In this document: positions 1,122 to 64,000 of the stretch, piece by piece
How the letters are laid out: every line of letters starts with the position of its first letter
How positions within the stretch are numbered: position 1 is the stretch's first letter
Source of the DNA: Terriglobus tenax
GTDB lineage: Bacteria > Acidobacteriota > Terriglobia > Terriglobales > Acidobacteriaceae
NCBI RefSeq assembly: GCF_025685395.1
Contig: NZ_JAGSYA010000004.1
Coordinates: 2,356,001 to 2,420,000 of the forward strand
DNA length: 64,000 nucleotides
Direction: 5' to 3'
Program-made: the position numbers and the translations under genes
The notes under the pieces: generated by a model
Told to the model about the DNA's origin: nothing
Database searches by the model: none
What the model saw: the letters and a program-made list of their open reading frames with translations, nothing else

Positions 1122-1886
1122 ATGAACATCACAGGAAACACGATTCTGATTACAGGCGGAGGCTCCGGCCTGGGCCGCGGTCTTGCCGAGGCTTTCCATA
1201 AGAGGGGCAACACGGTCATCATCGCGGGCCGCCGCCAGCAGGTACTGGATGAGGTGGTCGCGGCGAACCCCGGCATCGTGGCCATGACGCTGGATGTGAC
1301 GAGCGAGCAGGCTATCGCCGAGTTTGCAGCGGAGCTGACGGCGAAGTTCCCCGCGCTGAATGTGCTGATCAATATGGCCGGCATCATGAAGCCGGAGAAG
1401 GTTATCGACACCAGGGTCGCCGAGGACACGATCATCACCAACCTGCTGTCGCCCATCCGCCTGACCGCCGCCCTGCTGCCTACGCTGGAAAAGCAGAAGA
1501 GCGCCACGATCATGACGGTCAGCTCTGGCCTGGCCTTTACGCCGCTGGCGCTGACGCCTACCTACTCGGCAACAAAGGCGGCTATCCACTCGTGGTCGCA
1601 GTCGCTGCGCTACCAGTTGCGCGGCACCAGCGTGGAAGTGCTGGAGCTTGCCCCGCCCTACGTGCAGACGGAACTGATGGGTCCGGGGCAGAAGGCTGAT
1701 CCGCGCGCCATGCCGCTCGATGCATTCATCAGCGAGGTGATGCAGATCCTCGAAACGCAGCCTGAGGCGAAGGAGATCCTGGTAAAGAATGTCTACCCGC
1801 TGCGGTTTGCCGGCGACTTCAACGTGGAGAAGTTCGATGAGTGGTTTGACAAGTTCAACGCCATGCTGGCCGCGCCGCACGACTAG
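1122..1886 (+). CDS. Short-chain dehydrogenase/reductase (DltE-like SDR)
   Basis: A classical SDR of about 254 residues from the ATG at 1122; an in-frame ATG at 1101 would add seven residues. The N-terminus has the Rossmann motif TGGGSGLG for NAD(P) binding, followed by the structural motif INMAG (NNAG-like). The catalytic Ser is in VSSGLAF and the Tyr/Lys pair is YSATK. The substrate cannot be told from sequence. The 1122 start is preferred because AGGGAG lies 11 nt upstream and the fold begins immediately after it. The gene is divergent from an HxlR regulator, a common arrangement for inducible oxidoreductases. Its TAG stop lies at the start of a long heptamer-type inverted repeat. Confidence 0.9.
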   Translation: MNITGNTILITGGGSGLGRGLAEAFHKRGNTVIIAGRRQQVLDEVVAANPGIVAMTLDVTSEQAIAEFAAELTAKFPALNVLINMAGIMKPEKVIDTRVAEDTIITNLLSPIRLTAALLPTLEKQKSATIMTVSSGLAFTPLALTPTYSATKAAIHSWSQSLRYQLRGTSVEVLELAPPYVQTELMGPGQKADPRAMPLDAFISEVMQILETQPEAKEILVKNVYPLRFAGDFNVEKFDEWFDKFNAMLAAPHD

Positions 1887-1961
1887 TTGTCCGGCTGGCC
1901 AGATGACTGGATGGCTGGAGCGTGTGGGTTTCTCCAGCCAACCAGCCATCCGGCCAACTAG
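1883..1961. repeat. 7-bp-periodic inverted repeat (GTTGG/CTGG type)
   Basis: The left part reads CTAGTTGTCCGGCTGG and the right part ends ATCCGGCCAACTAG; the two are imperfect inverse complements and both are built from GGMTGG/GTTGG-like units about 7 bp apart. The left arm contains the SDR stop codon. It could fold into a long hairpin between two same-strand genes, but no T-run follows, so it is not a classical intrinsic terminator. Confidence 0.65.
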
Positions 1962-7695: not shown

Positions 7696-10600
7696 TTAGA
7701 AGGTAACGCGGCCAGAGAACTGGAACTGACGCACCTGGTAAGCATAGTTGCCGTTCACACCCGAGCTCGACGGCGTTCCGAAGTTCGTCGTCGCGGTCAG
7801 GGTGTTGTTGGCCAGTGAGAACGCACCGCTGTTCACACCGGTGATGTTGCGGTGATTGGCGAGGTTGAACGCCTCAGCCATGAGCTGGAAGCTCACGCCT
7901 TCCTTGATGCGGAAGTCCTTCTGCAGGCGCGTATCGATAACGATGTTGCGCGGAGCGAAGAGCTGGTTACGTCCGAAGAACGGGATGAACGAGCTGACGC
8001 CCGTACCAGCCACGCCGGAGGAGTAAGCCTGCAAGCAGGCCGTGCCGCTGGTGCACTGTGCGCTGGGCGAACCAGAGCTGGTGCCTACCGAGTACGGAAG
8101 ACCCTTCTGCATCTGGATCAGCGGCTTGATGGACCAGTCGTTGAGAAGGTAGCTAAGAGCACCATTGCTCTTTACACCCGGCAGATTGATGTTCGCCCAG
8201 CCCACGAGGCGGTGAGGAACGTTGATGTTCGAGTTTCCGTAGTTGGAGCGCGGGTTGTACGGATCCAGCCAGTTGTTGCCGGGGCTGAAGCTGGTCGACG
8301 AGCTCGGGGCGTAATCCAGAGCGTGTGCCCAGGTGTAGTTCACGTCGTACGAAATGCGCTTCCACTGGCGGTTGGTAACGTCGACCGTCAGGGCGTTGTA
8401 GCTCGAGTTTACGTTGCTGATCAGCGGCGTGATCTGGTTGTACGCCGGGTTCAGCGTGTTGGAGGTCGTGGTGTTGGCGACGGTGTTCCGGACGCTCGAG
8501 GAGTAAACCTTCTGCGTGAAAGTGGTTCCGCACGCAGCCACAAGGCAGTTCCCCGGAGCCGTAGCATTCGCCGCCAGCGTGTAGGTCACGTTGTAGGTCT
8601 GTGTCGGGTCCAGATTCAGATTCAGGAAGTTCGGTAGCTCACGTCCCAGCGATCCGATGTAGGAGACCGACAGAACATTGCGCTTGCCAAGATCCTGCTG
8701 GACCGTCAGATCAAACTGCTCGGTGTAGGGGTTCTGCAGGTTCTTGTCCAGATACAACACACCCAGCAATACATTTCCGCCAGGACGCGCGCTCAGTGTC
8801 TGTGGGAACTTGATGGTCTGCGGGGCGGAGGTCGTTCCGACGTTGGTTCCGTTATAAGCGGTGATCTGCAACTGTCCGCCCGCGCCACCGGTGGTGGTGT
8901 AAGCGCTCATCAGCGAGGCATTGATGATGCGGCCGTAGTAGATGCCGAATCCGCCGCGGACAACCGACTTGCCTTTGCCGAACGGATCCCACGCAAAACC
9001 GATACGCGGAGAGATATTGTTCTTGTCCGTAGGGTGGTTTGTTTGCTGCGGAACAGCAGAGTTGACAGCAGAAGCGTACGGCCCCGGGTAGGACTCGTAG
9101 TCATACCGTGCACCGAGATTGAGGGTCAGTGACGGCGTGACCTTCCAGTCGTCCTGGACGAAGTAGGCGGAGTCCAGCGTGGCCAGGTCGAAGGCCTGTG
9201 GTCCGAAGCCCTGCGACAGACCGCTGTGGCATCCGGCGGTACCGGTCGCGCTGAGGGTGGGAGTTCCGGAAGAGGTCAGCGGGTTGCAAGCGCCCGAGGG
9301 CTTCAGGATGTCGGCCAGATACAGACCTACGTTGGCATAGCTGTAGGAGCCGTTGCTCTGGTAAAGGTTGTTCTGAATGTCGTAGTTATGAACGAAGTCC
9401 ACACCAAAGCGAAGGGTGTGTTTGCCGAACTGGTAGGAAGCCGTATCACCGATCTGCCACTTGCGCTCATCAGGATAGGCGGTGCGATAGCTATAGTAGG
9501 GCGATCCAAGGTTGAAACCACCAGCGGAGGCCGTGATGGACGCATACGTCGTCACACCGTTCGCGCCGACCAGGTGGTTCTTGGAGTAGTCGGTGTAAGG
9601 CTGCTGACCTTCCCAGTTCAGTTCGCGAGCGTACTGGTAACGCAGCTCGTTCGTCATGTGGTTGTTGATCAGCGAGCTGAGACGGGCGATGCCGTAGTCC
9701 AGCTTGACGAAGTCGGTACCGAAGGAGTCGCGGGCGTAGGAGAGAGCTGCCTGCGTCTGCACGCCGCCGGGCGAATCCCAACGCAGACGGTGGTAGTAAA
9801 CGTCCAGCGTGTGCTTGGGCGAAATGACCCACGACAGCTTCGGAGTGTTGATGTTCTGGTGGCCGTAACGCGGCACCGAACCCAGGTCAGTGTTCAGGTC
9901 AGCCAGGGCAGCGTTGCACTGCGCCAGGCTGGCGCCAGTAGCGGTCAGCAAGCCGGAGGTCTGGCAGGGGCCGGCTGTCGCCGAGTAAAAGGTGGAAGGG
10001 TTACCCGAAACTGCGATGCCCGGGAACTGACGGTCGAAGACGTCGAACGCGTAGAACCAGAAGAGCTTGTCCTTGATGAGCGGACCGCCTACGCCGAAGC
10101 CGTACTGATTACGCTTGTCCTTGGGACGGATCACCTGCGGAGTGTAGGTGTTGGTCGTCGGGTTCAGCGTGGTCAGCGTCGTCTTCTCGTTCTTCGAGCT
10201 GGTCTTGTCGTTGCGGTGGAAGAAGTAAACCTCGCCATGCAACTGGTTTCCGCCGGACTTGGTGACTGAGTTCACCACGCCGCCTACGGCGCGGCCATAT
10301 TCCGCGGAGTAAACGCCGGTCATCACCTGGAACTCGCGCACTGAAACCTGCGAGATCGAGTAGCCTGCGCGCGTACGTCCACGCTCTTCGGAGAAGAAGG
10401 CCTGGTTGTCGTCAGTACCGTCAATCTGAACATTGTTCAGGACCGAGGGGATGCCGCGGAAGCTGAGCAGGCCGAAACCCGAAGCATCGTTGGTGACGCC
10501 CGGGGTGGTCAGCGCAAGCGAGGACCAGCGGCGGTTGTTGATCGGGATGTTCGCGATTTCGCTGGTGCTGAGGTGGCCGCCAAAGGTCGCCGAGGAGAAG

Positions 10601-42368: not shown

Positions 42369-43460
42369 TTAACTGCGCCAGTGCAGCTCCACCGGACCAG
42401 GCAGCGGATGCTCCCCTTCTCCGCTCAAACGCCGCTGTTTCAGGGCAAAGTACCATTTGGCCGGTTTATCGGCGTCGTCGATCAGCATCATCGCCGGCCG
42501 GAAGCGCAGCCCCTCGGCCTGTTCCATCATCGTTTCCTGGTCCTGGCGGACGAACCGTTTGCCGAACCACATTGCGATGGGCCGCACCACCGGCAGCCAG
42601 TGCAGCATGCTCCAGGCGGCGATGACATCAATGCGGCAGGTGGAGGCCGTCACCGGCGTTACGGTTGTCAGCGACGCGAACCAGTGCACAATTTCGCCGT
42701 TTTTACGGGCTAAAACCGTCTCGAAACGCCGATTTGGCAGCACAAAATCGATCGTTGTCTCCGGTTTTCCGATCAGCTTGTACGGCGCGGAGTTGGACGA
42801 CGGCACATGCGGCGACATCCGGAAACCCTCCGGAATCGGCTCAAAATGCTTTGTTTTCTCGTGGATACTGGCCGCCGAACGCCACCACCACGCACGATGC
42901 ACAAACGGTCCATGCGCCGGGTCCATCAGGCCAATAATGCCGTGGTCCACATTGCACGGAAGATCTGCCGAAATATGGGCGTAAGTAAAGTGTTTGCCGA
43001 ACTTTGGCAGCTCGGGAACAGGCGGCAGGCTGGCCTGGACGCGGCTGGCGCCTGGCTCCGGCATGTACACCCAGGCATAGCCATCCTGCTCCACGCAGGG
43101 ATAGGCGCCGGCGTAGATTTTGCCGGGCTGCAGGGTGTCAAACTGCGTCAGCGAAGGGATTTCGGCGCACTGGCCGCCGCAGGGCTCGAACTTCCAGCCG
43201 TGGTACTTGCACTGCACATGCTCGCCATCAAACCAGCCCGCGGAGAGCGGAATGCCGCGGTGGGGGCATAGATCCCTCATGGCAAAGATTCTGCCGTCAT
43301 TCTTGCGGCCCAGCAGGAGAGGCACGCCCAGCAGAAGGGCGGTCGTGGTTTTGCCCTTGCGCAGCAGGTCGCTGCGCAGCGCCGGGTACCACTCGCCAAA
43401 AATCATCTCTGTCGGAGGGCCTTCAACCCCCTCCATCAGCTTGTCGTTGCGCAACTTCAT
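42369..43460 (-). CDS. Rieske non-haem iron oxygenase (aromatic ring-hydroxylating type)
   Basis: A 363-residue oxygenase subunit. The Rieske [2Fe-2S] site is CPHRG (about 65-69) and CKYHGW (about 84-89). The mononuclear iron site appears as NVDHGIIGLMDPAHGPFVH, with the two His and following Asp region as in VanA-type demethylases and related oxygenases. No reductase or beta-subunit gene is adjacent, so an electron-transfer partner must be elsewhere. The substrate is unknown; vanillate, sterol or phenoxy-type compounds are options. Start MKLRNDK at 43460, with heptamer repeats just upstream. Confidence 0.9.
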   Translation of the reverse strand: MKLRNDKLMEGVEGPPTEMIFGEWYPALRSDLLRKGKTTTALLLGVPLLLGRKNDGRIFAMRDLCPHRGIPLSAGWFDGEHVQCKYHGWKFEPCGGQCAEIPSLTQFDTLQPGKIYAGAYPCVEQDGYAWVYMPEPGASRVQASLPPVPELPKFGKHFTYAHISADLPCNVDHGIIGLMDPAHGPFVHRAWWWRSAASIHEKTKHFEPIPEGFRMSPHVPSSNSAPYKLIGKPETTIDFVLPNRRFETVLARKNGEIVHWFASLTTVTPVTASTCRIDVIAAWSMLHWLPVVRPIAMWFGKRFVRQDQETMMEQAEGLRFRPAMMLIDDADKPAKWYFALKQRRLSGEGEHPLPGPVELHWRS

Positions 43461-43482
43461 CCGAGCCTGAGACTACAACAGA

Positions 43483-43566
43483 AGTTGCGAGATGTGCGTT
43501 GCGCGTTCTCTGTGGTGTGACGAAGAACACACGCCACCCAACTCGCATCGCGCAACTGCACCTACA
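43483..43566. repeat. 7-bp-periodic inverted repeat (AGTTGCG type)
   Basis: The left arm reads as heptamers AGTTGCG AGATGTG, then CGTTGCG CGTTCTC; the right arm is CCACCCA ACTCGCA, then TCGCGCA ACTGCAC. The right arm is roughly the inverse complement of the left. It occupies the divergent spacer between the Rieske oxygenase and the glycosyltransferase gene, so it may affect both promoters. Confidence 0.6.
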
Positions 43567-43576
43567 CTGATCTCAC

Positions 43577-45490
43577 GTGAGAGCCCTTCCTCCATCGACG
43601 AGAAGAGTTTTGTGGCTGCTGGCCTTGTGGGCCGTGTTTTATGCCAGCTTTACGCTGTTTTCGCCGCCACTGCTGGACGATGCGGATTCCGTTCACGCCG
43701 AGGTGGCGCGTGAGATGGTGCAGCGCGGCGACTGGGTGACGCTGTATGCCAATGGCATCCGCTACCTGGAGAAGGCGCCGGTGCTGTACTGGTCCATGGC
43801 GGCGTCCATGAAGGTATTGGGGGCCTATGCCGCCGCGGCGCGCGTGCCCATGGCGTTGATGGTGCTGGCGCTGGCGGCGATCGCATGGATCTTCGGGAGC
43901 AGGCTGAACGGCGAGCGGGCTGGGTTTTATGCGGCGATCGTGCTGCTGAGCTGCTTCGGGATCTTTATCTTCAGCCGCATTCTGTTGCCGGATGTGGCGG
44001 TGTGTCTGTGGTTGACGGTGGCGATGTACTGCTTCTGGAGGGTGGAGAGTGCCTTGCCACCTACCCTAGAGTTGCGAGGATGGAGCACCCGTGGATATGA
44101 AACAGCGTACTGCTGGGGCTTTGCCGTCTTTTGTGCGCTGGGCGTTCTGACAAAGGGACTGATCGGTCTTGTTTTCCCGGGGGCCATTGCCGTCGTCTAT
44201 CTGCTGCTGGCCCATGGGTGGCGAGGCATGCCGCGGCGGGTGTGGCAGATGCGGCCCATCAGCTCTCTGCTTGTCTTTCTCGCAGTGGCCGCGCCGTGGC
44301 ATGTGTTGATCGGGCTGGCGAATCCGGACCACGGTCACCCGGTTGGCCTGATACGGCAGAACGGCCACTGGTTTGTACCGGAGCCCACGCTGGGCAATGT
44401 GCATGGGTGGACGTGGTTCTACTTCATGAACGAGCACGTGCTGCGCTACATGAACCTGCGGGTGCCGCGGGATTACGACACGGTTCCTCTGTGGCTGTTC
44501 TGGGCGCTGCTGCTGGTGTGGCTGTTGCCGTGGTCGGCATTTGTGTTGCCGGCGCTGAAACGGGTGCGGTTCCGGGACGCGACGAAGGCCGGCCGCGAGC
44601 GGCTGTTCCTGGCGGTGTGGGCGGCGGTGCCAATGCTGTTCTTCAGCTTCAGCACGCGGCAGGAGTATTACGTTCTTCCTGCGCTGCCCGCCCTGGCGTT
44701 GTTGATTGCCTGCTGGCTGCAGGAGGAAGCCGTCGAGGCCGAAAGCTTTGCCGTGCCGCAGCCATTGGTGGCTACCGGACAGCGCGTGGTGACGGTGATG
44801 TTTGTCCTCGGTGTCCTGATCATGATGGTCTGCGGACTTCTGCTGCTGAATGCCAAGGAGCCGCCGCCGGGCACGGACATTGCGGCGCTGCTGCAGCAGA
44901 ATCCCGGGGAGTACGCTCTGTCGTTCGGGCACTTTCTTGACCTGACCGGGCCGGCGATGGGCATGTTTGAAGGCCCGCTGGGGCTGACGGCCGTGGCCTT
45001 TGGCGTGGGCACGGCAATGGCGTGGTGGAAGCGGCGGCAGTTTGAGCCGCATGTGTCGAACCTCTGGATCGTGGGGATGGCGTTTACCTTTCTGCTGGCG
45101 GCGCATACGGGGCTGCGCTTCTTTGCCCCGGCACTGACCTCAAAGCAGCTTGCGGACGCAATCAAGAACGATGTAACTCCGAAAGACCTGATCGTGATTC
45201 ACGGCGAGTACGAGGCCGGGTCGACGCTGGGTTTCTACCTGCGGCGCAATGACATTCACATCTACGAAGGGCGCAGCGCGAACCTCTGGTACGGATCGTT
45301 CTTCACGGACGCTCCGAAGATCTTTGAAGACGAGGCATCGCTGAAGGCGAAGTGGCTGAGCCATCAAAGGGTCTTCCTGTGGACGGAGAGCGGCAAGGTG
45401 CCGCCGTTCCTGGGGAAGGATTACTTCGTGGTTCTGGAGAGCGGCGGGAAAGCACTGATCTCGAACTATGGGAATGTGGTCCCGAAGTAG
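43577..45490 (+). CDS. GT-C fold glycosyltransferase (ArnT/GT39-like)
   Basis: A 637-residue polytopic membrane protein with about 11 helices and a GTG start. The first loop has the acidic motif LLDDADSVHAEVAREMVQRG, the catalytic-site signature of ArnT/PMT enzymes, followed by the ArnT-like stretch YLEKAPVLYWSMAASMKVLG. A soluble C-terminal domain of about 120 residues contains VIHGEYEAGSTLGFYLRRND. It probably transfers a sugar from a polyprenyl-phosphate donor to lipid A, protein or another envelope acceptor. The neighbour HpnI-like gene is convergent. Confidence 0.9.
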   Translation: MRALPPSTRRVLWLLALWAVFYASFTLFSPPLLDDADSVHAEVAREMVQRGDWVTLYANGIRYLEKAPVLYWSMAASMKVLGAYAAAARVPMALMVLALAAIAWIFGSRLNGERAGFYAAIVLLSCFGIFIFSRILLPDVAVCLWLTVAMYCFWRVESALPPTLELRGWSTRGYETAYCWGFAVFCALGVLTKGLIGLVFPGAIAVVYLLLAHGWRGMPRRVWQMRPISSLLVFLAVAAPWHVLIGLANPDHGHPVGLIRQNGHWFVPEPTLGNVHGWTWFYFMNEHVLRYMNLRVPRDYDTVPLWLFWALLLVWLLPWSAFVLPALKRVRFRDATKAGRERLFLAVWAAVPMLFFSFSTRQEYYVLPALPALALLIACWLQEEAVEAESFAVPQPLVATGQRVVTVMFVLGVLIMMVCGLLLLNAKEPPPGTDIAALLQQNPGEYALSFGHFLDLTGPAMGMFEGPLGLTAVAFGVGTAMAWWKRRQFEPHVSNLWIVGMAFTFLLAAHTGLRFFAPALTSKQLADAIKNDVTPKDLIVIHGEYEAGSTLGFYLRRNDIHIYEGRSANLWYGSFFTDAPKIFEDEASLKAKWLSHQRVFLWTESGKVPPFLGKDYFVVLESGGKALISNYGNVVPK

Positions 45491-45494
45491 GGGG

Positions 45495-45593
45495 AGTTTT
45501 CAGTGCTCTGTTGTCAGGTGTCAGAGAAGCAGATCGCTGCGGGATGACAGATCGGTGGAGATAACTCACAACTGAGAACTAAGAACTAACAAC
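45495..45593. repeat. 7-bp-periodic inverted repeat (AGTTSTC type)
   Basis: Left arm AGTTTTCAGTGCTCTGTTGT, right arm CACAACTGAGAACTAAGAAC then TAACAACT; the reverse complement of the right arm is AGTTGTT AGTTCTT AGTTCTC AGTTGTG. The arms are partly complementary across about 45 bp. The right arm overlaps the last codons and stop (TAG at 45579-45581 on the minus strand) of the HpnI-like gene. Confidence 0.75.
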
Positions 45594-46748
45594 TGTCTTC
45601 ACAAGTTTGCCCTTGTTCAGCTTGAAGGTTTCGCCTCGCCATTCAATGGTGTCGTCGGTCAGACCGAAGAGCCAGAGCAGGAGGCAAACCGAGTCCTTGA
45701 ACGGGATGAGCCACAGGTCGCGCAGCACCTGTCCGTCGCGCAGTACGCCGACTCCAACGGTGAGGCACATGGCCATGCGGGCCAGCAGTGCCATGCTCAG
45801 CAGCGAGAAAGCCCAAAGGTCAAAGCCTGAGGCGATGACGGTAGCCAGAGCCCACGGTACGCAGTAGGTGGTGGGCAGGCCGAAGTAGCCGCCGGGGCGC
45901 GCATCGCGCACGGTGCGGTACCAGCGGATCTGGTGGCTCCAGTAGTCCCGGGCGGTGTATTGCGGGGCGGAGGTGTCGACAACCTCGTCTGAGAGCACAA
46001 CCTGGTAACCGGCCTGGCTGATGCGCAGGCCAAGCTCGTAGTCATCGGCAAGGTACTCGACGATGGCTTCCAGGCCGCCGATCTCGGTGAGGATGCGCTT
46101 GCGCGTGGCCAGCGTTGCGCCCAGGCCGAAGTGGATGCCTTTCTCCATACGCCGCGCGACCATCAGGCCGGGAACGAAGTCGCAGGCGATGCCGAGAGCT
46201 TCGAGTTTTGCCCAGACCGTGGCTCCGCGCTGTGTGGTGAGTGCGCGATAAGCGCAGGTGACCATGCCGGTGCGGGCATCGTCAAAGGGCGAGAGCACGC
46301 GCGCCAGGTAGCGCGGCGAGACGAGGATGTCGGCATCGTTGATGACGATGTACTCATGCGCGGCGTGCGGCAGCATCTGGGCCAGGTTGCTGACCTTGCC
46401 GCTGGTGCCCAGCCGCTGTGGCGTGTGGACCAGGAGGATGTCCATCTGCGGGAACTCGGCCTGCAGACGATGGACTTCGGCGACGGCGGGGTCGGCCATG
46501 TCGGAGACGCCGAAGAGAAGCTGTACCGGCCCCTCGTACTGCTGGGTGCAGTGGCTGGCGAAGGCGGCGTAGAGATGCGGGTCCATGCCCTTGAGGGGCT
46601 TCATGACGGTGACGCCGGGCGCGAAGTCCGGGCGCTGTGTTTTGCGCCATGTGCGGACGAAGTCCCGCGTTCCCCAGAGCGACATCAGGCAGAAGGCGAT
46701 TCCCGCGAGGGTGAGCAGAGCGAAGAAGATGGCAATCCCGAGGGCCAT
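45579..46748 (-). CDS. hpnI: HpnI-like GT2/GT21 ceramide-glucosyltransferase-family enzyme
   Basis: A 389-residue membrane glycosyltransferase. Helix 1 (about 3-25) is followed by VTVMKPLKGMDPHLYAAFAS, FGVSDMADPAVAEV, the metal site NDADILVSPRYLARVL, LADDYELGLRISQAGY, and QIRWYRTVRD, the Q/RxxRW motif of GT21. The order and motifs match HpnI, which adds N-acetylglucosamine to bacteriohopanetetrol; a glucosylceramide synthase role is also possible. No other hopanoid gene is in the window. The C-terminus ends inside a heptamer repeat (VVSS-stop). Confidence 0.8.
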   Translation of the reverse strand: MALGIAIFFALLTLAGIAFCLMSLWGTRDFVRTWRKTQRPDFAPGVTVMKPLKGMDPHLYAAFASHCTQQYEGPVQLLFGVSDMADPAVAEVHRLQAEFPQMDILLVHTPQRLGTSGKVSNLAQMLPHAAHEYIVINDADILVSPRYLARVLSPFDDARTGMVTCAYRALTTQRGATVWAKLEALGIACDFVPGLMVARRMEKGIHFGLGATLATRKRILTEIGGLEAIVEYLADDYELGLRISQAGYQVVLSDEVVDTSAPQYTARDYWSHQIRWYRTVRDARPGGYFGLPTTYCVPWALATVIASGFDLWAFSLLSMALLARMAMCLTVGVGVLRDGQVLRDLWLIPFKDSVCLLLWLFGLTDDTIEWRGETFKLNKGKLVKTVVSS

Positions 46749-46770
46749 TGCTTCTAGGGTAAATGGAGCG

Positions 46771-46859
46771 GAGTTGCGAGTTACGAGTTGTGTGGTGTGA
46801 GTTGGGCCCTCAGGCCATTTCTACACACAATGCACAACTCAGCACGCACAACTTATTAC
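46771..46859. repeat. 7-bp-periodic inverted repeat (GAGTTGY type)
   Basis: The left arm is GAGTTGC GAGTTAC, then GAGTTGT GTGGTGT GAGTTGG; the right arm is ACACACA ATGCACA, then ACTCAGC ACGCACA ACTTATT ACTCGTA. The repeat unit is 7 bp in both arms and the arms are inverse complements in part. The right arm runs over the stop codon (46856-46858) of the ABC permease gene. Confidence 0.7.
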
Positions 46860-48103
46860 TCGTAACGAAGGGCTTCGATGGGGTTCAGGTTGGCGGCTTT
46901 CCAGGCTGGGTAGATGCCGAAGACCAGGCCGATGCCGCAGGAGCCGATGAAGGCGGCGATGATCCAGACCACGGAGATGCTGACCGGCAGGAGGAAGTGC
47001 AGCAGGCCGGCGAGAATGCCTCCGACGGTGATGCCGATGAAGCCGCCGACGGCGCACAGGGTGATGGCCTCCAGCGTGAACTGCGAGAGGATGGTCTGCT
47101 TGGTGGCTCCGATGGCCTTGCGCACGCCGATCTCGCGGGTGCGTTCGGTGACGGAGACCAGCATGATGTTCATGACGCCGACGCCGCCCACCATCAGGCC
47201 GACGGACGAGAGGCCGAACATCAGGGCGAACAGGCCGCCGGTGATCTGCGACCACAGGCGGGTGATGGAGTCGGACGAGAAGATGGCGAAGTTGTCGTCC
47301 TTGTTGTTAGGCACCTTGCGGCGGCGCCGCAGCAGGTCGCGCAGCTCGTCTTCCACCAGAGAGCGGTTCTTCTGCTCGTCGTACTTCACGCTGACCCAGT
47401 AATCGAGGATCTCGGGGTGGATTTTGTGAAAGGTGGCCAGCGGCATGTAGGCGTAGTTGTCCTGCGGGTTCTTTCCGCCGCCTACCAGGGACTTCTGCTT
47501 GTCCATGACACCGATGACGGTGAAGAAGCGGTTGTCGAGGGCGATCTCCTGGCCGATGGGGTTTTCCGCAGGGAAGAGGCCGGCGGCGGTGTCGTAGCCG
47601 AGTACGACCACGTCGGAGGCGCGCTGTTCTTCGGTCTCCGTGAACATGCGGCCGGCGGTCAGGTTGTAGTCATACACGTCCTTGACAGAGGCGGTGTCGC
47701 CTTCAATGGAGACGGACTGTACCTTGCGGCTCTTGAACTTGGCGGTGACGTTGCCTTCGTTGAACTGCATGTTGGCATAGCGCAGGCCGGGTGAGACTGC
47801 GACGACGTGCGGCAGGTCTTTCATGGCCATGGCATCGTCATAGGTGAGCTGCTTGCGGGTCAGCATCTCGGTGGTGGGACGACCGAAGCCGAACTCGAAG
47901 CGGAAGACCCAGAGCACGTTGGTGCCGAAGCTGGAGACAGCCTCTGAGACCTGGCCGTTGAGGCCGTTGATGACCGACGAGATCAGGATGACGGTGGAGA
48001 CGCCGATGACGATGCCAAGGATGGTGAGACCGGAGCGCAGCTTGTTGGCGCGCAGCGTGTCCATGGCCATGGTGACGGTTTCTTTGAAGTCGGCGAGTTT
48101 CAT
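46856..48103 (-). CDS. MacB-type ABC transporter permease
   Basis: A 415-residue permease with the MacB/FtsX topology: helix 1 after NKLRSGLTILGIVIGVSTVI, a periplasmic MacB_PCD domain (about 45-265), then three helices starting LFALMFGLSSVGLMVGGVGV. The stretch VMNIMLVSVTERTREIGVRK is the coupling region to the ATPase. The C-terminus has GIYPAWKAANLNPIEALRYE. It follows the second permease gene by one base and is presumably its heterodimer partner. No ATPase or membrane-fusion gene is adjacent. Confidence 0.92.
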   Translation of the reverse strand: MKLADFKETVTMAMDTLRANKLRSGLTILGIVIGVSTVILISSVINGLNGQVSEAVSSFGTNVLWVFRFEFGFGRPTTEMLTRKQLTYDDAMAMKDLPHVVAVSPGLRYANMQFNEGNVTAKFKSRKVQSVSIEGDTASVKDVYDYNLTAGRMFTETEEQRASDVVVLGYDTAAGLFPAENPIGQEIALDNRFFTVIGVMDKQKSLVGGGKNPQDNYAYMPLATFHKIHPEILDYWVSVKYDEQKNRSLVEDELRDLLRRRRKVPNNKDDNFAIFSSDSITRLWSQITGGLFALMFGLSSVGLMVGGVGVMNIMLVSVTERTREIGVRKAIGATKQTILSQFTLEAITLCAVGGFIGITVGGILAGLLHFLLPVSISVVWIIAAFIGSCGIGLVFGIYPAWKAANLNPIEALRYE

Positions 48104-51595: not shown

Positions 51596-52032
51596 GCAGA
51601 TGGGGCCGGATGGTCGCTGCCAGCTTCGGCTGGGAGAGGAAAGTCCGAACTCCGTAGGGCAGTGTGCCGGATAACGTCCGGGATGCCGGTTTCAAGACCG
51701 GTAGACGGCAAGTGCCACAGAGAAGATACCGCCGCAGGACGCGAATGCAGCTTGCGGTAAGGGTGAAAAGGTGCGGTAAGAGCGCACCGCGCAGCTGGTA
51801 ACAGTTGTGGCAGGGTAAACCCCACACGGAGCAAGACCAAATAGGCGGGAAGATGGTCCTCGACCCTGATGGGGCCATCGCGTATCGGCCCGATGCGCCA
51901 AGGGGGGTTCCTGAAGCGGCTTGCCGCAACAGGCCGGAACTCGCGGGTAGGTTGCTGTTGAGTGTCCGCAGTAATGCGGCGCCTAGAGGAATGACCGTCT
52001 AGAACAAAATTCGGCTTACGAGCCTTGTCTGC
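51596..52032 (+). ncRNA. rnpB: RNase P RNA (bacterial type A)
   Basis: The P1 stem is GCAGATGGGGC at 51596-51606 pairing with GCCTTGTCTGC at 52022-52032, with G-U pairs. Conserved regions are in order: GAGGAAAGTCCGAACTCC, CACAGAGAAGATACCGCC, AAGGGTGAAAAGGTGCGGTA, and GAGGAATGACCG near the 3' end followed by ATTCGGCTTAC. About 437 nt, as expected for a type A catalytic RNA that trims tRNA 5' leaders. Boundaries are set by P1 pairing. Confidence 0.95.
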
Positions 52033-52037
52033 AAGTA

Positions 52038-61954: not shown

Positions 61955-62944
61955 CTATTTCAGCAGCTTTGCGGCTTCCTTGGCGAAGTAGGTGAAGATA
62001 AAGTCGGCGCCGGCGCGGTGGATGGCCAGAAGGCTTTCGAGGATGGTGCGCTCGCGTTCGAGCCAGTCTTTTTCGAAGGCGGCACAAAGCATGGAGTACT
62101 CGCCGGAGACCTGGTAGGCGCCGATGGGCACTTCGAAGCGCTGGCGGGCGGCGAGGATGATGTCCAGGTAGGGACCGGCGGGCTTCATCAGCAGCATGTC
62201 CGCGCCTTCCATCAGGTCCAGTTCGATTTCGCGCATGGCTTCACGCGGGTTGGCGGCGTCCATCTGGTAGGTGCGGCGGTCGCCGAACTGCGGGGTGGAG
62301 TCGGCGGCTTCGCGGAAGGGGCCGTAGAAGGCGGAGGCGAACTTGGCGGCGTAGCTCAGGATGGGCACTTCGGTGAATCCGGCCAGGTCCAGCTCCTCGC
62401 GAATGGCTTCGACGCGGCCGTCCATCATGTCCGACGGTGCGACGATGTCTGCTCCGGCGCGTGCGTGCGATGCGGCGGTTTTGGCCAGCAGCTCGATGGT
62501 GGCATCGTTGTCGATGCTGTAGTGGTCGCCTTCGCGGGCCACGATGCCGCAGTGGCCGTGCGAGGTGTACTCGCACAGGCAGACGTCGGAGATGATGAGC
62601 AGGCTGTCGAGCGCGGGCTCGGCCTTGAGGGCGCGGATGGCTCGCTGGACGATGCCATCTTCCGCGTAGCCGCCGGTGCCGGTCTCGTCCTTGCTTTCGG
62701 GCAGGCCGAAGAGCAGCAGGCCACCGATGCCGAGTTCGGCGCACTCGCGGGCTTCCTTCAGGGCTTCGTCAATGGAGAGGTTGTAGACGCCGGGCATGGA
62801 CGAGATGGGCTTACGTACGCCCTCGCCGGGGCAGATGAACAACGGGTACAGCAGCATGCCGGGGCGAAGGTGGGTTTCGCGCACCAGTGAGCGCATGGCC
62901 GGGGTGCGGCGCAGACGCCGCATGCGAGTGATCGGGAACTCCAT
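61955..62944 (-). CDS. hemB: Porphobilinogen synthase (delta-aminolevulinic acid dehydratase)
   Basis: A 329-residue TIM-barrel enzyme that condenses two 5-aminolevulinates in haem and cobalamin-precursor synthesis. The two Schiff-base lysines are in [15 protein letters not shown] and [20 protein letters not shown] carries the three-Cys zinc site, so this is a zinc-type HemB. It begins [18 protein letters not shown] and contains GLFPLPE-like [12 protein letters not shown]. Complete. A REP-like copy follows its stop. Confidence 0.97.
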
Positions 62945-62976
62945 GGGGTAATTCTACGGCTGGCGGATGGTGGAAG

Positions 62977-63050
62977 GTTGTCAGTGCTCTGTTCTCAGAG
63001 GGGTCTCGGCTTATTCCGAGTTCTTACTGACAACTGAGCACAGAGAACTA
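62977..63050. repeat. 7-bp-periodic inverted repeat (AGTTSTC type)
   Basis: Left arm GTTGTCAGTGCTCTGTTCTC, right arm CTGACAACTGAGCACAGAGA then ACT; the reverse complement of the right arm is AGTTCTC TGTGCTC AGTTGTC AG. The arms are about 20 bp each, with a 28-bp centre. The right arm starts at the stop codon of the zinc-ribbon gene (63048-63050). Confidence 0.75.
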
Positions 63051-63554
63051 GTCCTCGGCGATGGAGTCGTACTCCAGGCCGGAGGCCGCGGGGGCCAGCA
63101 CCCAGAGCGTGTAAACACCGAGGGCGGTGCCGAGCGGAAACTTGAGTAGTGCCAGCACGCCGAAGACGATGGCCAGCGTACGTGCCCAGCGCTTGCGCTG
63201 CATCAGTCCCCAGGCTACCAACGCGGCCGCGCCGGCCATGACAAGCGTGGTGGCGAAGATGAAGGGTATGAGGGCGTGCAGGAAGGGCAGCTCCGCGCCG
63301 GAACCGCTCCAGCGGAAAAAACGCCGGCCGAGTACGGCATTGGCAAAGGCCATACCGAGGAAGACGCTGACGACGCGATAGGCTGCGAAGATGGCCCACA
63401 GGATGCTGAGGGTCTGCAGATGCTTTTGTACGCGGGGCAGATAAGGCAGGCTGTACGCGGCGGAAATGCCGGAGGGCATGGGTTGCCGGGTGCCGCAGCG
63501 CGAGCAGAAGCCGCCATCGGCGGCGGTAGGAGAACCACAGGTAGCGCAGGTCAT
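63048..63554 (-). CDS. Zinc-ribbon membrane protein
   Basis: A 168-residue protein from the ATG at 63552-63554. The N-terminal zinc ribbon has CATCGSPTAADGGFCSRCGT, then four probable membrane helices (about 48-70, 83-105, 108-125, 135-155). It has the same plan as the protein at 28239-28919, but the sequences differ. Function unknown. Its C-terminus EYDSIAED ends directly at a heptamer repeat. Confidence 0.75.
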   Translation of the reverse strand: MTCATCGSPTAADGGFCSRCGTRQPMPSGISAAYSLPYLPRVQKHLQTLSILWAIFAAYRVVSVFLGMAFANAVLGRRFFRWSGSGAELPFLHALIPFIFATTLVMAGAAALVAWGLMQRKRWARTLAIVFGVLALLKFPLGTALGVYTLWVLAPAASGLEYDSIAED

Positions 63555-63658
63555 TGGAAGCGCCTCCTTTGTGAACCAGAGATATCTACGCAAAGGGCCC
63601 GTGACTGGTTCCGTCAGGCGGAATTTTACGCCCGCCCGTCCGGCTACGATAGAGAGAT

Positions 63659-64000
63659 ATGGCGGAGTTGGATCAATTGCGCGAGACCAGTGCGGTGTCA
63701 CTGGAGTGGCCGCGGCTGCGGGAGCAGATTGCGCGGCAGACGGGGTCGTCTGCAGGCCGTGACCATGTGCTGGCCCTGGAGCCACGTATGGACGCGGCGT
63801 GGATTGCGCGCCAGCACGACTCGGTTGCCGAGGTGCGTACGTACCTGGCGACGGGGGCGGTGTTCTATTTCAGCCAGGTCTTCGCGCCGGAGTCGATGCT
63901 GGAAAAGGCACGTATCCCCGGCGCTTCGCTGGAGCCGGAAGAACTGCTGCGGCTGCTGGCGCTGACGGAGACCATGGAAGAGTGGCGGTCGGTGGCGCAG
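63659..64000 (+). CDS. mutS2: Probable endonuclease MutS2, N-terminal part
   Basis: Frame open from the ATG at 63659 to the right edge: 114 codons. It reads MAELDQLRETSAVSLEWPRL, LREQIARQTGSSAGRDHVLA and LEPRMDAAWIARQHDSVAEV, like the N-terminal clamp region of MutS2 (LEFDKILEQLA, GRELALALEP). The MutS-like ATPase and Smr nuclease domains would be beyond the window. ATP-binding and Smr motifs cannot be checked here, so the name is provisional. Confidence 0.6.
   Translation, partial: MAELDQLRETSAVSLEWPRLREQIARQTGSSAGRDHVLALEPRMDAAWIARQHDSVAEVRTYLATGAVFYFSQVFAPESMLEKARIPGASLEPEELLRLLALTETMEEWRSVAQ

Follow-up and report, generated by a model that had tools for sequence, protein, structure and literature searches.

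The window analysed here is a stretch of 64,000 nucleotides (G000:C4:2356001-2420000) from a genome of 4.36 Mb in four contigs. On direct reading, all five of the inverted pairs of short repeats listed by a first-pass annotation are present in it, each formed by two close rows of tandem 7- or 8-base units on opposite strands (Table 1), and its statements that the units differ by locus and that the pairs lie in spacers are likewise borne out. The arms had also been called inverse complements of each other; they are indeed inverted, but the repeats are imperfect. The spacers concerned are short intergenic ones, which the elements fill, and at four of the five elements (1, 3, 4 and 5) an adjoining ORF has its stop codon inside an arm. 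The left arm of element 1 contains the TAG stop (1884-1886) of an SDR gene at 1101-1886, the right arm of element 3 that of a minus-strand glycosyltransferase gene (45579-45581; flanking genes convergent), and the right arm of element 4 that of a minus-strand MacB/FtsX-like gene (46856-46858). Element 5 adjoins an ALAD gene, and its right arm ends in the stop codon (63048-63050) of a minus-strand ORF, 63048-63785, without a Pfam match. Element 2 is flanked by divergent genes, namely a Rieske gene on the minus strand and a PMT-like gene on the plus strand.

Table 1. Inverted pairs of tandem short units in the window
Element	Coordinates	Strand	Period	Unit type	Left arm	Loop	Right arm
1	1883..1961	.	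8		1883-1920	1921-1931	1932-1961
2	43483..43560	.	7	AGTTGCG	about 43483-43519		about 43528-43560
3	45495..45595	.	7	AGTTSTC	45495-45524		45563-45595
4	46771..46866	.	7	AGTTGYG	about 46771-46805		about 46823-46866
5	62976..63050	.	7	AGTTSTC	62976-63000		63026-63050

A bacterial RNase P class A RNA lies on the plus strand at 51598-52034 (261 bits) and is the only match in the window at Rfam gathering scores, so that the elements do not belong to a known RNA family. A match to the Acido-Lenti-1 RNA was seen in the congener G002. Near the window, L020 3088-3216 (G000:C4 about 2303088) contains two TGTTCCACGTGGAACA sites, which resemble parS.

Period, unit and polarity of the arms

A hairpin score combining lag matches in both arms with complementarity recovers, at lag 7, the stretches 43483-43557, 45501-45588, 46772-46867 and 62976-63049 out of 48 spacer stretches in the window, with scores of 38-42 that none of 200 dinucleotide shuffles of each attained. 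The pair at 1883-1961 scores 44 at lag 8 (0/300 shuffles) as against 31 at lag 7, a value reached by 6 of 300 shuffles; the proposal that a period of seven is kept at all five loci thus stands for four, and element 1 has a period of eight. A 400-kb sample of the same genome beyond the window yielded two single arrays in spacers at lag 7, one at lag 8 and four each at lags 9 and 12, and the only high-scoring lag-7 hairpin of the family (L018 8688-8807) was classed as 'CDS' by the script, whose ORF calls are greedy and crude and placed some true elements in that class of the hairpin scan. In a close relative (G002, 1.216 Mb), 20 spacer arrays fall at lag 7 and 17 at lag 8, the remaining lags between 4 and 12 having 0-7 apiece; within ORFs it is lags 6, 9 and 12 that predominate, the pattern expected from codons. 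Spacer hairpins of G002 scoring 39 or more number six at lag 7, six at lag 8 and none at lags 5, 6, 9, 10, 11 and 12, one of the six at lag 7 (L118) being a different palindrome and other lags also appearing below score 39. Hence, the genome-wide test at lag 7 suggested by the first-pass annotation gives a clear signal in the window and in G002, and a thin one in the sampled remainder of the genome itself. No hairpin at lag 7 or 8 with a score of at least 36 was found in samples of G035 (140 kb; same family), G007 (120 kb) and G005 (80 kb), the last two of the same genus; an initial 22-base pattern had no match in the genome under study, and a strict hairpin pattern none in 99 loci. The shuffles and the lag counts in the window, in G002 and in the cross-phylum loci considered below rule out a chance origin of the arrays. 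The palindromes around GGGCTTTAGCCC at L118 4843-4901 and L123 14119-14181 constitute a separate intergenic family that also scores at lag 7.

Inspection of the arms shows that they are rows of mostly RGTTNNN, or 8-base, units which point inwards. RGTT is part of the consensus of 27/30 arrays detected without a motif in G002, 6/6 in G009, 3/7 in G000, 22/37 in G336 and 15/44 in G178, as compared with an expected 10.9% of uniform 7-mers. Variability peaks at the base following RGTT in four of the five array sets, and in G009 this base ranks third; within arrays of G002, the constancy of G, T and T is 0.88, 0.85 and 0.86, against 0.61 for the following base, and 0.84 for the last position. This favours, to some degree, a reading in which the paired rows are bound by a nucleoid or regulatory protein recognising RGTT every 7-8 bases, the inverted pairs allowing two arrays to be bridged; for pairs of this kind in Geobacter, the available part of the original report likewise proposes IHF/HU or another global regulator (PMC2700814). 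However, unit and period (7 or 8) switch at the same slot between related species (see below), the samples (80-140 kb) of G007, G005 and G035 contain no such hairpin, and units lacking RGTT are in use in other phyla, all of which makes such binding arrays unlikely.

Of 297 genomes in the phylum, 99 contain the AGTTNNNRGTTNNNRGTTNNNRGTT pattern, among them 17 of the 31 that share the family of G000. G002 has 84+96 matches, G009 62+35 and G000 4+7; the reversed control of the pattern has none in these three genomes and is high in several others. Across 17 array-rich genomes a step-7 pattern gave 2233 matches against 159 for its reversed control, and a step-8 AGTT pattern gave 28, in 6 of the 17, against 209. 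Both counts include overlapping matches in genomes picked for step 7, and the reversed step-8 control also catches TTGAATGG-type octads, such that the step-8 AGTT pattern does not provide a fair octad count.

With respect to polarity, three AGTT units followed, across a gap of 5-35 bases, by three AACT units occur in 11 of 16 array-rich genomes, and the opposite order (AACTx3..AGTTx3) in one; the genomes of the polarity, Y1 and step-8 counts were hand-chosen, mostly for their richness in step-7 arrays. The sole genome with outward AACT..AGTT pairs, G313, has a related inner part around GAAAGTAACTT and is the exception to an otherwise fixed inward polarity. The strict AGTTx3/AACTx3 forms are absent in both orders from G002 and G009, whose loops are longer. 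Neighbouring RGTT arms with gaps of up to 200 bp, counted in local sequence of G002, G336, G178 and the cross-phylum loci (matches masked), are inward in 19 cases, outward in none and on the same strand in one. Further, among 88 motif-free lag-7 hairpins (score >=40; cross-phylum loci, G336 and G178 pooled), the 5' arm is more than half G+T in 64, tied in 7 and below half in 17 (sign test on 81, p 1.4e-7, for loci that are not independent of each other). Integron attC sites have a single RYYYAAC..GTTRRRY core pair, and are excluded as a counterpart by the tandem rows in the opposite order, GTT..AAC, seen here.

Folding and compensation between the arms

Four of the five elements fold better as RNA than their shuffles (1880-1964, z -4.4; 43480-43570, z -2.9; 46765-46865, z -3.9; 62970-63054, z -3.7), whereas element 3, the one that the first-pass annotation put forward as 45495-45593, does not (45490-45598, z -0.35, with 66 of 200 shuffles at least equal). 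Action in RNA, as transcript ends or as stabilising or regulatory hairpins, would accord with the folding of the four, with the terminator-like hairpins within some cores, and with an over-representation of convergent spacers, in that the flanking genes of 22 elements of the clade are convergent in 9 cases, tandem in 10 and divergent in 3, as compared with 124, 271 and 146 of 541 background spacers of 100-600 bp. The GGGCTTTAGCCC palindrome matches, L100 (no context), and L014 and element 1 of the window (both called within an ORF) had been dropped before this count of 22, and L084, a weak match, was retained. However, the neighbours in this set thus include all three orientations, element 2 itself being situated between divergent genes, and a scan of 43301-47000 for a stem followed by a T run found no terminator-like site, and hence no intrinsic terminator, at elements 2, 3 and 4.

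Additionally, the arms were compared by shuffling the order of units within one arm and asking whether variants are mirrored in register. The test, which is weak for any single pair given that the arms hold 3-5 units, left out pairs without unit variation in the right arm, arms outside 22-80 bases and gaps above 120. Shuffled orders score about as well as the real order: at lag 7, the mean z is 0.11 for 138 cross-phylum pairs (4 with p <=0.05), 0.0 for 15 pairs of G336, 0.11 for 13 of G178, 0.67 for 5 of G002 and 1.42 (p 0.19) for the one pair of the same genome (45503-45598); at lag 8, it is -0.08 for 12 pairs of G178, -0.23 for 5 of G002, 0.36 for 2 of G336, 0.32 for 2 of the same genome and 2.14 for 5 cross-phylum pairs (1 with p <=0.05). 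The arms therefore have the unit in common, but not clearly the order of its variants. That unit variants are not mirrored between the arms speaks against selection for a precise RNA stem, and precise RNA pairing under selection is rejected on this account. The suggestion in the first-pass annotation of a transcript-end structure or regulatory RNA hairpin is accordingly weakened by the uncompensated arms, the lack of a terminator at 43483, 45495 and 46771 and the occurrence in spacers of all orientations, and we regard a role in RNA as very unlikely.

The same comparison bears on the possibility that replication slippage generates the arrays where they stand and strand switching writes the second arm, the 7-base step stemming from the replication machinery and no mobile element being involved. 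Period 7 does dominate across unrelated units (see the lag counts in 587 kb below), long pure arrays exist (e.g., L074 18039-18250), and heptamer over-representation together with the polymerase-footprint idea of Mrazek 2007, as told in the available part of PMC4679880, would fit such an origin. However, concentric copying predicts mirrored variants, which the above-mentioned 138 pairs do not display; at one slot the type of arm changes together with that of the core, and one junction is present at places far apart. Hence, synthesis in place by slippage appears doubtful as an explanation of the elements.

Differences between species at orthologous slots

Orthologous spacers were compared in G002, G009, G016 and G013, where DNA was at hand. 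The slot of element 1 is occupied in G009 and G013 by other octads in a row and in G002 by a one-sided heptad row, and that of element 3 contains heptads in G000 and octads in G002 and G009. The slot of element 4 bears heptad pairs in G000, G002 and G009, with differing units and cores. Element 2 is present in G000 and has no counterpart in G009; in G002 its slot contains another inverted-repeat insert (L051 about 9650-9810), which has ends like GAGTAGTTCTCC..GGAGAACTGCTCT and is absent in G009. At L066 13945, within DNA that is 85-91% identical across species, each of the four has an element of its own: G002 and G013 carry two different octad pairs, G009 has GTTGCTR heptads and G016 AGTTGAA heptads, and no core is common to any two of them. 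At L066 10051, G002 and G013 have an octad element with a common core, and G009 and G016 an AGTTGAA heptad element with another common core. L066 12856 has AGTTGCC in G002 and GTTGCTR with a common core in G009 and G016; L074 15853 has GTTGCTR in G002 and G009 and long AGTTGCC rows in G016 and G013; and at L074 17942 the element of G002 runs to about 28 units, that of G009 has mixed arms, and G013 shows a near-empty remnant (L333). In the aligned pairs, the element borders fall near the same points beside gene ends. The comparison of relatives that the first-pass annotation had advised thus reveals different types, different cores or absence at the same slots, and, since related species can carry different versions in the same gaps, the elements look like small mobile or fast-swapping ones.

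The arm-core junction GTTRAAGNGKTANTGCA occurs at 18 places (3 in G002, 7 in G009, 4 in G013 and 4 in G016), with none for its reversed control, and is absent from the other 16 of the 20 genomes searched, including G000. Copies with nearly identical arms carry different cores (L064, L066), other arm types enclose unrelated cores, and inside some of these lies a terminator-like hairpin or a different repeat family. When 35 kb of G009 were set against G002, the stretch contained no RGTT-type array and six weak arrays of other kinds.

In light of the slot and junction evidence, together with the inward polarity and the RGTT consensus of the arrays, the five features might best be understood as small non-autonomous elements of mobile type, MITE- or REPIN-like and with high turnover, a reading to which we would give about an even chance; among the origins offered by the first-pass annotation, a recombination product fits best. 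In each element, two inward rows of 7- or 8-base units, mostly built on RGTT in this clade, enclose a variable core, which measures about 10 to 190 bases among the copies examined; the elements lie next to gene ends, in the little non-coding sequence present there. An element could be replaced by one of another type, such that the slot stays filled while unit and core change. Copies would move or be copied between loci, a protein would probably recognise the arms, and arm length would vary by gain or loss of whole units, slippage being the likely cause of changes in unit number. Exchange of spacer alleles among species is another process by which types might be mixed. Inward pairs in the array list of G002 span about 310 bp or less. 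REPINs and MITEs likewise have two inverted ends, a variable spacer, an intergenic location and many copies; however, in the available parts of these reports, REPIN ends are a single palindrome, as opposed to the tandem short units here, for which no linked transposase was found (PMC3116915, PMC3733652). As for the shared core of a MITE, the GTTRAAGNGKTANTGCA junction is present at 18 places, yet other copies have arms in common without cores. No clean target-site duplication was seen and no excision product was found, and clear empty sites are few, comprising that of element 2 in G009 and the remnant L333. The search for a transposase partner, which covered the Y1 family (PF01797), found none, and the many units used in other phyla are not explained by a single mobiliser.

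Y1 transposases (RAYT/TIRYT) could in principle mobilise the elements as REP/REPIN or TIR repeats, and TIR-flanked acidobacterial Y1 genes are mentioned in the available part of PMC3733652. Their genes are commoner in array-rich than in array-poor genomes (present in 23/25 versus 20/29; Mann-Whitney p 0.0007), in a comparison of hand-chosen genomes unmatched for kinship or size, 5 of the 54 (G001, G005, G007, G013 and G016) being outside the array count and G001 never examined for arrays. However, there is no PF01797 match in G000 and G313, and G000 (98% complete) is perhaps already a case of a complete, array-active genome that lacks Y1 genes. Further, none of five Y1 genes examined has adjoining heptads, with two of them having other inverted repeats, and the arms are without an evident GTAG tag. 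The tandem, mostly RGTT arms are thus distinct from the GTAG-tagged palindromes associated with RAYTs, and mobilisation by Y1 transposases is highly improbable.

Several other features were observed beside the elements. The ALAD gene is inverted in G002 (L063 2105-3575) relative to window positions 61955-63050; there it lies between two heptad-bearing spacers, the nearest arms of which face away from the gene, and recombination between inverted arms is a possible route to the inversion. L074 16936-17053 of G002 is an element of roughly 116 bp with inverted ends GAGCATTTTCCCTG..CAGGGAAAATGCTC, and dozens of its kind, mostly at 90-96% identity, are among the matches listed in G009, G013 and G016. 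The repeat TCATCCTGAGC..GAAGGAYCTGC was seen in 7 of 99 loci, two of these being the same place (L051 11838-11864, L063 3448-3475, L068, L079 and others), and is nested between heptad or octad arms in two spacers.

Related repeats and distribution across bacteria

The STRR heptamers of cyanobacteria were reportedly described by Mazel in 1990. The inverted, hairpin-capable arrangement had struck the first-pass annotation as unusual; however, there are precedents in Xanthomonas (PMC4692102), Geobacter (PMC2700814) and cyanobacteria (PMC2670836), the comparisons with which draw on the available parts of these reports. In Xanthomonas, two genomes have 70 and 75 inverted convergent pairs of GGGAATC heptamers, and, as here, there are heptamer rows whose length differs between relatives; in contrast to the present elements, with their many mostly RGTT-type units, the unit is a single G-rich, G-quadruplex-forming one, and the kind (single or pair) is usually preserved between the two species (PMC4692102), whereas here the type changes at the same slot. 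Classes 1-3 of Geobacter metallireducens comprise GTTGCTYN octamers and MTYCTGA heptamers in opposite-strand pairs at variable distance, comparable to the present elements in their tandem, paired 7-8-base units and with a GTTGCT core close to the GTTGCTR found here; they have been interpreted, in that one species, as sites for a regulator or IHF/HU (PMC2700814). The STRR heptamers are likewise 7-bp, hairpin-forming and intergenic, and were described in filamentous cyanobacteria (PMC2670836); AGTT heptad hairpins were also found here in Nostoc, Rivularia and Calothrix. TAACTGA repeats of Beggiatoaceae, Cyanobacteria and Bacteroidetes, the reverse complement of which reads AGTTATC and hence is one AGTTNNN unit, comprise 169 direct-repeat sets and one indirect, and, unlike the elements here, are direct repeats of one exact unit mostly just upstream of start codons, according to the available part of the report (PMC4679880).

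The first-pass finding is real, if partly misdescribed as regards the period of element 1 and the poor RNA fold of element 3, and belongs to a scattered and poorly explained kind of intergenic repeat; heptamers are over-represented among the simple repeats of many bacterial genomes without a settled explanation, as stated in the available part of PMC4692102. Inverted heptamer and octamer pairs have already been described, the newer parts being the polarity, the slot replacement and the breadth; among the open-access matches listed (titles and abstract starts), there was no report of RGTT heptad pairs in Acidobacteria, slot replacement or cross-phylum polarity. A polar inward pair that is seen in many phyla and changes type at fixed slots between species whose DNA is 8-15% apart has a turnover measurable in strain collections, and its architecture is a concrete object whose maker can be sought by genetics.

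A scan of named species for AGTTx3..AACTx3, run without a control pattern, found at least 114 stretches. Among the 80 loci listed are Acidobacteria, Bacteroidota, Planctomycetota, Desulfobacterales, Nitrospiraceae, Nitrospinota, Gemmatimonadota, Cyanobacteria (Nostoc, Rivularia, Calothrix, Oscillatoria), Chloroflexi, Elusimicrobia, Verrucomicrobia, Clostridia, candidate-phylum MAGs and one Thermoplasmata MAG, many of these genomes being MAGs that may hold misbinned contigs. Period-7 hairpins of many other units are abundant in the 587 kb around these matches, which were chosen for holding an AGTT pair and do not constitute a random survey: with the match masked and at a score >=46, there are 31 at lag 7, as against 0, 1, 2, 1, 0, 0 and 1 at lags 5, 6, 8, 9, 10, 11 and 12. 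AGTT is in the consensus, on either strand, of only 40 of the 152 lag-7 arrays of these loci, which indicates that the period is more general than the motif. Tentatively, inverted pairs of period 7 (at times 8) whose 5' arms are rich in G+T might all be members of one pan-bacterial intergenic class, made or spread by a shared, as yet undescribed machinery with a 7-base step and fixed polarity, the Xanthomonas, Geobacter, cyanobacterial and Beggiatoaceae repeats then being local dialects of that class; this is possible, though we think it less likely than not.

At the same threshold (score >=46), G336 has 9 hairpins at lag 7 and 4 at lag 9, and G178 has 10 at lag 7 and 5 at lag 8. In a Chloroflexaceae MAG (L204, 219-4546), 13 period-7 hairpins of several unit types with scores >=41 lie within less than 5 kb, beside the masked AGTT pair.
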